A program made the translations under genes and the position numbers. 20,170 bases of DNA, taken from IMG/VR virus record IMGVR_UViG_3300025168_000901, positions 1 through 20,170 of that record. The stretch is one strand, 5' to 3'. How positions within the stretch are numbered: the first letter of the stretch is position 1; each line of letters begins with the position of its first letter. The notes beneath the pieces were generated by a model. That model searched no databases. It saw nothing but the letters and a program-made list of their open reading frames with translations, and was not told the DNA's origin. This DNA is from a virus. Shown here piece by piece: positions 510 to 5,085 of the stretch.

Positions 510-527
510 AAATTTTATACTTTTCGA

Positions 528-543
528 TGTTTCACGTGAAACA
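528..543. other. parS: Perfect parS-type centromere palindrome
   Basis: TGTTTCACGTGAAACA is a perfect 16-bp palindrome and extends by one matched pair to 18 bp (527-544). It equals the consensus chromosomal parS site bound by the CTPase ParB in most bacterial phyla. It lies in the 57-base gap between two small phage genes, just before the ribosome site of the second, so it does not interrupt coding sequence. With no loop and no T-run it is not a terminator. No parA or parB gene is visible in the window, so any ParB would come from the host or from another part of the genome. No second CACGTG-centred copy was noticed. Confidence 0.88.
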
Positions 544-566
544 TTATAGGATAAGGACATAAAGTT

Positions 567-725: not shown

Positions 726-2189
726 ATGCTACGTGCAGAAACCCCTGAGATAGAAGAGCGCCGTTTAAAGTTACAATTACGATTAGCCCAGCTTGAAGAA
801 GTAAAAACGTGTCAAGATGATTTCTTAGCTTACGTGAAAAAAGTCTGGCCTGAGTTTATTGTAGGCGCTCACCATAGAATGATAGCAAAAAAGTTTGAAG
901 ACATAGCAACAGGTAAAAATAAACGCCTTATAATTAACATGCCTCCAAGACACACTAAGTCAGAATTTGCCAGCTATCTTCTTCCTTCATGGATCATTGG
1001 CCGTGCACCAAAGACCAAGATCATTCAAACAACACACACGGCTGAACTTGCTGTTAACTTTGGCCGTAAGGTACGAAACCTTCTGGATACAGATATGTAC
1101 CAGTCTATTTTTGAAAAAGTAGAACTACAGGCTGACAGTAAAGCCGCGGGACGATGGTCCACGAACCATGGCGGGGAGTACTTTGCTGCGGGTGTTGGTG
1201 GTGCCATTACAGGTCGGGGTGCTGATTTGTTGATTATTGACGATCCGCATTCAGAGCAGGACGCACTTTCTGAAACAGCTATGGAACATGCCTATGAGTG
1301 GTACACTTCGGGTCCCCGGCAAAGACTTCAACCGGGAGGGGCTATTGTTATTGTTATGACGCGGTGGTCTTTGAAGGATCTCACTGCAAAAGTAATCAAG
1401 GCCCAAGGCTATGCGGACCATTCAGATAAGTGGGAGATAGTGGAGTTCCCTGCTATCATGCCTTCTGGAAAAGCTTGCTGGCCTGAGTACTGGGACGTTA
1501 ACGAGTTGGAAGGGGTCAAAGCTTCTTTGTCTGTAGGTAAGTGGAATGCTCAGTGGCAGCAGAACCCTACTTCAGAAGAAGGTGCTATTATTAAGAAGGA
1601 GTGGTGGAATATTTGGGAAGAGGATGAGGTTCCGCAGCTTGAATATATAATACAAAGTTATGACACGGCGTTTAGTAAGAAGGAGACGGCTGACTACTCT
1701 GCTATAACAACGTGGGGAGTATTTTATCCAAAAGAAGAGGGTCCCGCTAATCTTATACTTCTGGATTGCAAAAAAGGCAGGTGGGATTTTCCTGAATTAA
1801 AAATAGAGGCTATGGAACAATACAAGTTTTGGGAGCCTGAAACCGTTATTATAGAGGCAAAAGCATCTGGAACACCCCTAACTCAAGAATTGAGGCAGTT
1901 AGGAATTCCTGTTGTTAACTTTACACCGAGCAAAGGAAACGATAAGATAACACGAGTCCATTCCGTATCTCCTCTTTTTGAAAGCGGGATGATATGGGCA
2001 CCGGATGAACGTTGGGCAGATGAAGTCATTGAAGAATGTGCAGCTTTCCCAAATGGGGATTACGATGACTTAGTTGATAGCACCACGCAAGCCTTGATGA
2101 GGTATCGCCAAGGTAACTTTGTACAATTACCGAGTGATGACTGGATGGATTCAGAACCATCTACAGAGATACGGACTTATTATGGCTGA
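726..2189 (+). CDS. terL: Terminase large subunit
   Basis: This is the packaging motor: an ATPase that drives DNA into the prohead through the portal and a nuclease that cuts concatemers. The ATPase half shows a Walker A-type loop, MPPRHTKS, at 72-79 (a variant typical of terminases rather than classic GxxxxGKT), a Walker B LLIIDDP at 168-174 and the coupling motif MTRW at 211-214. The C-terminal RNase H-like nuclease shows the acidic set D313 (SYDTAF), E377 (IIEAKASG) and D447/D448/D451 (DYDDLVDSTTQ). At 487 residues it is full length. The gene starts directly after the zinc-finger microprotein, and its end overlaps the next gene by eight bases. No small terminase is recognised upstream. Confidence 0.96.
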   Translation: MLRAETPEIEERRLKLQLRLAQLEEVKTCQDDFLAYVKKVWPEFIVGAHHRMIAKKFEDIATGKNKRLIINMPPRHTKSEFASYLLPSWIIGRAPKTKIIQTTHTAELAVNFGRKVRNLLDTDMYQSIFEKVELQADSKAAGRWSTNHGGEYFAAGVGGAITGRGADLLIIDDPHSEQDALSETAMEHAYEWYTSGPRQRLQPGGAIVIVMTRWSLKDLTAKVIKAQGYADHSDKWEIVEFPAIMPSGKACWPEYWDVNELEGVKASLSVGKWNAQWQQNPTSEEGAIIKKEWWNIWEEDEVPQLEYIIQSYDTAFSKKETADYSAITTWGVFYPKEEGPANLILLDCKKGRWDFPELKIEAMEQYKFWEPETVIIEAKASGTPLTQELRQLGIPVVNFTPSKGNDKITRVHSVSPLFESGMIWAPDERWADEVIEECAAFPNGDYDDLVDSTTQALMRYRQGNFVQLPSDDWMDSEPSTEIRTYYG

Positions 2190-5085
2190 TGAACCCAAAC
2201 AACCCTCTACTGTTTTTCAAGATGACTTTCTTGATTGGGCCTCTAGGAATGATCAGCAAAGTCCTCCCCCTGCTGAGGTATCCCCAAATGATGCTTTAAT
2301 ACTTCCTTGCGGAGGAACAAAGGATCCCGCCTCATGTGCCATGGAAGCTTACAAGAGATACGTTGGTCCTACGTGGAACGAAACACGTAAAGCTTTAGGA
2401 GGAGAAGGTTTTCCTCGTTATCAGGACAAATCTCAAAACATACCGCAAGCCCTTAAAAACATGGGTGTTGATATGTACGTTTTATCTGCGGAGTACGGTT
2501 TAATACCCGCAGACACTCTTATAGAAAATTATGACCGGAGAATGACCCCTGATAGAAGAGAAGAGATTAAAGCTGACAAAAACCTTAGCCAAACTATATC
2601 CGACACTCTTTCCAAGTATAACCCTGAGAAGATTCATTTAGGTACTCCTAAAGATTACACCAAGCTTATTACGGATGTCATGGGAAAGAACTATCAATCT
2701 GTTTTTCCGGAAGGCTCTGGTCAGGGAAGCCAGAAGAAAGGCATAGTAGATTTTTTAAAGCTTAGGCTTCTGAAAGATGTAACCAAGGCCACCGGACAAG
2801 AACTTATTCCTTTTGGAGAAGACCCTGGACAAATTACCTTACCTATGGGTGAAAAGAAATCTAAGGAAGGTGTAGCATCAAAGATGTGGAAAGGTATTGG
2901 ATCCCTTGCGAGGCAAAGAGTTCCTATAATGGAAATAATAAGTGCTGCTCAAGGCACTTGGAATCAGATGGATCCTAAGACCCAACAAGAAATAACAAAT
3001 TTTATGCAAACACCATTCTACGAGTTACTTGGAATGGAAAAAGAAGGGATTGATTATTTCAGGGGCTTGGTAGGTTTGCCGCCCGGTGGCATTACTGATG
3101 TAGTTGACGATCCGATGGGTGATATGTCGAGGCAGTTAGACCTTGTAAAAGACACAGTTCTTGAAGAAGATTATCAACTAGAGAAAATGTATCTTGACCT
3201 AAAACTTACTCCCGAAGATCGAGAAGATGTTCAAAATATAAAAAAATTAAATAAAGGTTTAACCGAGCTTGAGTCTTTAAATCTGTGGCGCAGAAGACAA
3301 CCATCGGTGGTTCGAGATTTTTCAGGAAATGCATTTCCTAATCCTCAAGAACTGTCCCACGAAGAGTGGCAAAGAACTGCTCCGAAAAAGGAACTTGATA
3401 AGTTTACAAAAGACAAAGTTAAGAATGAAGGCATAGGTGGGCTGTTTGATTTTGACTTTGGAGAAGGCTCTTCGGGTGCCCAAAGAAAGAAGCAGTTAGA
3501 AGATTTTGAACGCCGCAGAAGGCAAGGTATTATGGCTAAGGCAGAAAATCCTGTTGAGACTAAGCAAGTTAAACGTTTCGGACAAACAGTAGACAAGCAA
3601 TATAAGCTACCTAGTGACCCCTTGTTTGAGGTTTCAAATGTTGATTTAGAAGAAAGTATTAGGCCAAGAGGTGGTCGGACTTCAAAAAACTATAAGTATC
3701 GTGAGCTAATGGGTGACGATCCAAAACTCTTATCAGAAAACCTTCCTCGCGGTTACTCTGAAAAAGATTTAGAATGGTTAAGGGAAAAAGGACTTACTTA
3801 TGAACAAGGACCTAAAGCAGTGAAACCTGAACAAGCTGGTTATTTAACCGTGGACCGTCCTGTTGAAAAACCTGAGTATGATTACACTCCGGCAGGTCAG
3901 TACAAAATGGAAACTAATAGTCTTGAAGGTTCTTTTTTAAAGCAGGGTAAAGGTGATGAACTTGGTATAAAATACGCCCCGCATAAAGACGAAGGAAGGC
4001 CTGATAACCCCATAGTTTTTCTTGAAAGCAGTACTAAAATAAAAGACAATCTTTTAGAAAAAGCAGAACGCGGTGAACTGTACCGCGCAAAAAACACGGG
4101 TGCTAAGAGTATTTATTCAAAAGAATATATGAATATTCCTGCTCTTAAAAAAGAAGCCCAAGAATTAATATCTTATCAAGAGGGTGTTATAGATTCATAC
4201 AAAAGAAATCTTAAAAATATTGATGAACGACTTGAACGGATGACAACTAATCCAACTCTTTACGGCCTTGATTTAACTGAAGTTGAAGATGATATAAAGG
4301 CTTACAAGAACTTCTCAATTCCTAATATAAATAAAAGAGTAGGTGATCTTGGTGACGAAGTGGAACATTTACAAAGGTTTATTAACGGTGAGAGTATATA
4401 TACCAAAAAAATGTATGATGAGGATAGTATAAAACAACGTGCCGAACTGGAAGCGGCTGGCGTAGAAATTATACCTTTTCATAAAAGAAACTCTAATCTT
4501 ATTAGCTACCGTCAAGGACTAAGGAAATTTTTAAGTGGGATGAAAGGTCATAACCAAGGCCCACCTATGGATGAAGATTCTGAATTTCCAAAGACACATA
4601 ACCAAGGCCCACCTATGGATGAAGAAGATCAGGGGGTTAAGGTAAAACTTAGAGGAATGTCAAAGGAGCCAAACCCCTTTATTGAATCTGTGGCTTCTGT
4701 TTATCCAGAAGAATCTCTTCCTTTTGGCGAAAATAAATTAGGTGAAGGTACTAGTAGATTTAATTTTAATGATAAAGGATGGGTTACATTAAGAAAAACA
4801 GAAAGCCCAAACACAGCCAAAATCGAATCCATACAAGCTTTTGAACCGGGTAAAGGCTTTGGAAATGAGGTGATGCAGGCTCTTGTTAAAAAAGCTGATG
4901 AAACGGGTGTTACTTTAACAGGTAATGTAGAGCCTTTTGGAAATGAGGAGAGGATGAGTAAAGAGCAGTTAGAGGAATTTTACAAGAGATTTGGCTTTCA
5001 GGTTTATGAAGAGGGTGACATAACGAGAGCTGTTCGGCTCGTTCCTGTAAAAGTAAAACTACAAGGCTTTAAAAGGAAGTACTAA
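2182..5085 (+). CDS. Large multi-domain polyvalent-like protein (967 aa)
   Basis: An unusually long protein between terminase and portal. I start it at the ATG at 2182 (MADEPKQPS), which overlaps the terminase stop by eight bases; the frame stays open back to 2119, but that stretch lies inside terminase. Residues 36-170 resemble the DUF6884/YaaA-like fold: a strand ending in LPCGGTKD (C-x3-K), then AYKRY, then VLSAEYGLIP and a conserved YDRRM. The middle (about 180-770) has no recognised domain; it is charged, with helical coiled-coil-like stretches near 650-770. Two copies of HNQGPPMDE begin at residues 790 and 806. The end (about 865-960) looks like a GNAT acetyltransferase core, with a GKGFGNEVMQAL cofactor-loop-like motif and a final EEFYKRFGFQVYEEG. 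Such mixed architectures are typical of polyvalent proteins that enter with phage DNA. The acetyl-donor site and activity are inferred. Confidence 0.75.
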   Translation: MADEPKQPSTVFQDDFLDWASRNDQQSPPPAEVSPNDALILPCGGTKDPASCAMEAYKRYVGPTWNETRKALGGEGFPRYQDKSQNIPQALKNMGVDMYVLSAEYGLIPADTLIENYDRRMTPDRREEIKADKNLSQTISDTLSKYNPEKIHLGTPKDYTKLITDVMGKNYQSVFPEGSGQGSQKKGIVDFLKLRLLKDVTKATGQELIPFGEDPGQITLPMGEKKSKEGVASKMWKGIGSLARQRVPIMEIISAAQGTWNQMDPKTQQEITNFMQTPFYELLGMEKEGIDYFRGLVGLPPGGITDVVDDPMGDMSRQLDLVKDTVLEEDYQLEKMYLDLKLTPEDREDVQNIKKLNKGLTELESLNLWRRRQPSVVRDFSGNAFPNPQELSHEEWQRTAPKKELDKFTKDKVKNEGIGGLFDFDFGEGSSGAQRKKQLEDFERRRRQGIMAKAENPVETKQVKRFGQTVDKQYKLPSDPLFEVSNVDLEESIRPRGGRTSKNYKYRELMGDDPKLLSENLPRGYSEKDLEWLREKGLTYEQGPKAVKPEQAGYLTVDRPVEKPEYDYTPAGQYKMETNSLEGSFLKQGKGDELGIKYAPHKDEGRPDNPIVFLESSTKIKDNLLEKAERGELYRAKNTGAKSIYSKEYMNIPALKKEAQELISYQEGVIDSYKRNLKNIDERLERMTTNPTLYGLDLTEVEDDIKAYKNFSIPNINKRVGDLGDEVEHLQRFINGESIYTKKMYDEDSIKQRAELEAAGVEIIPFHKRNSNLISYRQGLRKFLSGMKGHNQGPPMDEDSEFPKTHNQGPPMDEEDQGVKVKLRGMSKEPNPFIESVASVYPEESLPFGENKLGEGTSRFNFNDKGWVTLRKTESPNTAKIESIQAFEPGKGFGNEVMQALVKKADETGVTLTGNVEPFGNEERMSKEQLEEFYKRFGFQVYEEGDITRAVRLVPVKVKLQGFKRKY
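4549..4625 (+). repeat. 29-bp direct repeat encoding HNQGPPMDE
   Basis: Bases 4549-4577 and 4597-4625 are identical over 29 bases and lie 48 bases apart in the same reading frame. They encode two copies of the peptide HNQGPPMDE inside the large protein. Identity at silent positions points to a recent duplication. Short GHN-x-x-PP motifs occur in other phage proteins, often close to a terminus or between domains; here they sit in the linker before the GNAT-like domain. Confidence 0.9.

Follow-up and report, generated by a model that had tools for sequence, protein, structure and literature searches.

The window, by which we mean the whole stretch of DNA analysed, comes from IMG/VR as a fragmentary record 20,170 bp long. 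Genes for the terminase large subunit (TerL), an SU10-type portal, a GroES-like protein and a major capsid protein identify it as tailed phage DNA, in agreement with the phage label it was originally given. Near the left end, three reading frames follow one another on the plus strand: a 75-aa ORF assigned to phrog_8676 (282–509), a 52-aa Cys-rich, zinc-ribbon-like ORF (567–725) and terL (726–2189). The first two are separated by a gap of 57 bp (510–566), as had been described. A weak sigma-70-like promoter (GTGAAA-18-TATACT, plus strand, 492–521) reaches into this gap; promoters of this kind were no commoner than in shuffled sequence. The contig edge to the left carries a perfect 18-bp tandem repeat (20–106, 4.8 copies, GATCGGCTGCGCTGGGTG), which could mark either the end of an assembly or a repeat region. 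Between terL and the portal gene lies a 965-aa protein (2188–5085) with a DUF6884 and a weak GNAT match; the interval at this position is highly variable among relatives and may encode polyvalent, injected proteins.

Bacteria use the DNA tag parS in chromosome segregation, and ParB is the protein that reads it. The gap contains a perfect 16-bp palindrome, TGTTTCACGTGAAACA (528–543, without strand), which begins 6 bp after the end of the promoter-like element and fits the bacterial chromosomal parS consensus TGTTNCACGTGAAACA (PMC7022226). The original prediction had placed a perfect parS at 527–544; the exact 16-mer was confirmed, and its true span is 528–543. It was the sole parS match in the window even at up to three mismatches, a threshold at which 10 of 100 dinucleotide shuffles of the window gave any match. 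The number of exact hits expected in the window was 4.7 × 10−6 with equal bases and 7.4 × 10−6 at the window GC content of 41%.

Relatives were gathered by TerL alone, blind to the parS site. Close relatives were defined by a TerL at least 85% identical and the presence of upstream sequence (n = 31). The exact 16-mer was found upstream of terL in 27 of them, three had one mismatch (L122, L136 and L138) and one, L128, had no site; after removal of near-duplicates at 95% terL identity, 19 of 23 were exact. The nucleotide identity of terL in the same set averaged 80%, with a minimum of 74%, and no invariant run in the gene exceeded 11 nt; conservation of the 16-mer thus surpasses that of the adjoining coding sequence. 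When the close relatives were aligned, parS stood out as a distinct block between variable flanks. The small Cys-rich gene between the site and terL was present in the window, L122 and L123 and missing from most close relatives; in the remaining ones the site lies 30–60 bp before terL. In most close relatives, a conserved −10 element resembling TGCTATAAT precedes the site by about 15–30 bp and terL follows it after 30–40 bp; TATACT occupies the same place in L122 as in the window. Absence or mutation of the site in close relatives had been set beforehand as a possible refutation, and the idea survived it. The claim that chance was unlikely held as well: with the expected counts given above and 27 of 31 close relatives exact, we reject a chance origin for the window's site on sequence grounds.

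The site extends to a wider family, in which its position changes. In 1.31 Mb of TerL-retrieved DNA, parS occurred 31 times exactly and 45 times at up to two mismatches, compared with no exact matches and a mean of 0.55 at up to two mismatches for 40 palindromes built from shuffled half-sites. A site at up to two mismatches was present in 22 of 30 group records, most of them with a single site, and the reversed control gave none. Across IMG/VR, at least 120 stretches carried the exact 16-mer, and among those listed 34 had TerL, portal or head genes of the group (at least 45% identity); a control palindrome of equal composition was found in 33 stretches in the whole collection. In distant relatives (TerL 57–71%), the site lies 20–140 bp or 0.8–4 kb upstream of terL, or 60–800 bp after the portal gene, and in some it falls inside large ORFs of 793, 890, 1155 and 1578 aa. 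Gene calls in relatives were a simple choice of the longest ORF, so small site-containing ORFs, unlike the large ones, could be artefacts. Five records (L055, L084, L097, L121 and L067) have two or more sites each. In the nine site-bearing records of at least 30 kb, 12 of 13 sites, a set that includes one weak, non-palindromic match, were close to terL or the portal gene or no more than 8 kb away from them. The exception is a second site in G009, with one mismatch, at 38826 beside an exonuclease gene.

The nearest isolates or sequenced phages by TerL were HTVC027P, HTVC023P, 023Pt_psg01 and DSL-LC04 (61–68%). Pelagiphages of the HTVC023P/HTVC027P type resemble the window's group in gene content and in TerL (61–65% identical). 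A site with one mismatch lies between terS and terL in HTVC027P, whereas HTVC023P has no site at up to two mismatches; 023Pt_psg01, DSL-LC04 and several low-GC records also carry none. Two to five exact sites also precede terL in a second, distant tailed-phage lineage (L017, L044, L053 and L075), whose TerL is only some 27% identical to that of the window; in L017 (2657–3444) and L044 (10535–11462), five sites fall within about 0.9 kb.

The main variants of the site were TGTTCCACGTGAAACA, TGTTCCACGTGGAACA and CGTTTCACGTGAAACA, with changes mostly at position 5/12 or 1 and a nearly invariant ACGT loop. Published consensus forms of parS are TGTTNCACGTGAAACA and t/cGTTt/cCACGTGAAAca; position 5 is N in the Corynebacterium and Burkholderia consensus, and T/C is tolerated at positions 1 and 5 in Caulobacter (table in PMC7022226). 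Compared with these forms, the deviating phage sites are mostly altered at positions where ParB is known to accept changes.

In Pfam searches, 30 group records, among them four complete genomes and three 55–62-kb contigs, gave no match to ParB_N (PF02195), HTH_ParB (PF17762), ParA, AAA_31 (PF13614) or tyrosine integrase (PF00589); the same searches were positive in bacterial controls. For the window's own clade, no ParB was found in G016, which covers 20 kb upstream of terL, or in the window, which covers 18 kb downstream, with perhaps a third of the genome outside both. The upstream genes of G016 encode helicases, a primase, PolA, an MT-A70 methylase, a cell-wall hydrolase, TerS and a DUF932-like protein. 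A phage-encoded ParABS system was rejected, its ParB_N, HTH_ParB and ParA domains being undetected in these records, and so was an integrated prophage, given that tyrosine integrase was undetected in them. The plasmid-like prophage proposed originally finds no support in gene content (tyrosine integrase, ParA and ParB not found in the 30 group records). The suggested look-up of parA and parB, which detected neither, fits the use of host ParB. With no recognisable ParB or ParA of the phage, the host's ParB is probably borrowed.

The same element occurs in unrelated phages. A doubled-parS query was fully covered in 169 phage records, versus 2 for a control palindrome, and none of the ten phages with exact parS that were checked had a ParB_N match. 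Exact sites without ParB_N were recorded in Ruegeria phage DSS3P8 (3), Lactobacillus phage Lpa804 (3), Gordonia phages PatrickStar (2) and Woes (2), two Microbacterium phages, Clavibacter phage CMP1 and a microvirus. The phi29-like phage B103 has one exact and one single-mismatch parS, and inovirus bajarodino virus 6 (L335) has six exact sites in 5.9 kb, most of them intergenic (635, 662, 1414, 2857, 4096 and 5628); ParB_N was absent from both. Only 4 of 50 other parS-bearing viral contigs had a ParB_N match. No enterobacterial phage appeared among 60 rows sampled across the ranked parS matches; this is not a counted test, but it fits the fact that enterobacteria are not known to have chromosomal ParABS. 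We give about even chances to the broader proposal that host parS without ParB is a general, convergent strategy of tailed dsDNA phages, filamentous phages and microviruses in ParABS-bearing hosts, by which non-integrating viruses would ride host segregation.

Two known systems come closest. Phage phi29, reported to use the host Spo0J (ParB) (Meijer et al. 2005, as cited in PMC9437464), similarly lacks its own ParB; the use cited there concerns spore entrapment in a Gram-positive host, whereas the present phages are marine, podovirus-like and probably infect Gram-negative hosts. Relatives of phi29 also carry the site elsewhere in the genome than the window's group does. The parS-like elements of SGI1 exploit the ParABS of IncC plasmids, with binding and stabilisation shown experimentally (PMC10954446). 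SGI1 is likewise a mobile element with parS mimics that use the ParAB of another replicon, but it relies on a plasmid parS and a plasmid helper, whereas here the element would be the chromosomal parS of the infected cell. A parS copy without an own ParB, the mark of host-parS exploitation in phi29 and SGI1, was found in the window's group. Alphaproteobacterial phages acquire binding sites for another host cell-cycle protein, CtrA, which tune infection (PMC9437464); CtrA, however, is a transcription factor and ParB a segregation clamp. Phage-plasmids such as P1 and mycobacteriophage RedRock (PMC7157519) also have a centromere on the phage genome, but with their own ParA, ParB and parS repeats, and neither gene was detected in the window's group. 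In the open-access literature on parS in pelagiphages or on phages exploiting host ParB, only phi29, SGI1 and engineered lambda-parS reporters were found, which is not proof of novelty. With phi29 and SGI1 as precedents, host-type parS on these phages is apparently a widespread, new form of an already known strategy.

We consider it likely that the 16-mer is a functional parS copy, on which host ParB would load and spread and so link the phage genome to the host ParA/SMC machinery. Host ParB, a CTP-dependent DNA clamp, would load on the phage parS and slide onto neighbouring phage DNA; the ParB-coated genome, infecting or replicating, would then be coupled to host segregation. Within the recruitment of host ParB proposed originally, the conserved parS-type element and the failure to detect phage ParB or ParA stand as observations, and binding itself is retained as the best reading of the site's identity, conservation, relocation and tolerated variants. 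Given such binding, the site may keep phage genomes attached to the nucleoid or co-segregated during slow or stalled infection, a step that we regard as quite possible but short of probable. Phage would then remain in both daughter cells, much as phi29 makes use of Spo0J. The variable location, the sites inside genes, the low copy number and the two precedents (phi29/Spo0J and SGI1/IncC ParABS) speak for tethering or partition. Against the proposed role of host ParB stand the members without a site (L128, 023Pt_psg01, DSL-LC04, HTVC023P and several low-GC records), and against a pure partition role the position of most sites within 8 kb of terL, for which partition has no need. Infected cells carrying engineered lambda-parS formed ParB foci and lysed nonetheless (PMC13190303); lytic growth can thus proceed with ParB loaded.

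For the window's clade, the main rival is promoter control, suggested by the site just past a promoter-like element and by parS repression in P. aeruginosa. Transcription of the structural genes would be blocked or delayed by host ParB beside the terL promoter, which would tie the late switch to the host cell cycle, to the CTP state or to titration of ParB by multiplying phage copies. The spacing of about 15–30 bp past the TGCTATAAT-like element in most close relatives agrees with this, as do the window's site directly after TATACT and the repression of adjacent genes by the intergenic parS3 and parS4 of P. aeruginosa (PMC7022226). However, loss of Spo0J in B. subtilis left parS-adjacent genes unaltered (PMC7022226), the window's promoter prediction did no better than shuffles, and the sites of other lineages lie after the portal gene, inside ORFs of 793–1578 aa or kilobases from terL. 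Across the wider family the site changes its locus, which weakens the case for silencing that acts only locally, and control of the late operon appears rather unlikely. A pure promoter operator was rejected as a misfit with sites inside ORFs and at other loci.

Slightly less likely, in our estimate, is a decoy role, in which replicated phage parS copies would titrate host ParB (and ParA/SMC) and disturb host segregation or division to the phage's gain. Phage replication raises the number of parS copies, some phages carry up to six sites, and the parS-like sites of SGI1 destabilise its helper plasmid while stabilising SGI1 (PMC10954446); titration would nevertheless favour arrays, and most group members have a single site. 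The clustering of sites near terminase genes could alternatively reflect the packaging region. ParB recruits SMC at parS (PMC10197239), and ParB at the phage site might load host SMC, the phage DNA being folded or disentangled for replication or packaging. The position of 12 of 13 sites in the neighbourhood of terL or the portal gene suits such a role, which we hold to be distinctly unlikely; the terS-terL-portal region may merely tolerate insertions.

Binding of the palindrome by a phage repressor or by a very divergent phage ParB below Pfam detection, with the identity to parS coincidental or borrowed, is improbable. Operators are typically palindromic and most genes of these phages have no assigned function, but the same 16-mer occurs in unrelated phages of ParABS-bearing hosts, the site deviates where ParB is tolerant, and a ParB domain was undetected in the 30 group records. 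An RNA hairpin or terminator conserved for its structure is highly implausible: the symmetric variant TGTTCCACGTGGAACA would preserve the stem, but one-sided variants such as TGTTCCACGTGAAACA recur although they break it, a pattern that fits a ParB site better. In addition, the ACGT loop hardly varies, the site is not followed by a T-run and the control palindrome is unconserved.

The hosts of the window's phage group are probably Gram-negative. The best TerL matches in GTDB genomes are spread over SAR11 single cells and metagenome bins from many phyla, and so point to no particular host of the window's phage. The SAR11 cell AG-404-L13 (G026) has one exact parS elsewhere; on its related phage contig, no site was found within 10 kb of terL. 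Site-bearing phages mostly have 45–57% GC (41% in the window), and low-GC pelagiphage-like members are mostly without the site, which suggests, as a correlation only, that site-bearing hosts may be other than SAR11.

If host ParB loads as proposed, a widespread marine phage group would exploit bacterial segregation without integrating and without an own ParB. This would give a concrete handle on the persistence of apparently lytic phages in slow-growing ocean bacteria, and carrier-state infection could be tested by changing one 16-bp site. Isolated phages with the site that are practical for such work infect Gordonia, Microbacterium, Ruegeria, Lactobacillus and B. subtilis.

Several further features were noted in one relative, G001. 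Two parS sites in a single long ORF (L327, 15034 and 15715) share 9-bp flanks (GGGCGATGC...TCACCGCCC), as if site and flanks had been copied together. Its terL (L067, 4816–7326, minus strand) is a single ORF of 836 aa, interrupted by a LAGLIDADG/Hom_end insertion some 340 aa long that looks like an intein. The match to PolA on the same contig (L067/G001) is also split, with about 0.9 kb between its two parts.
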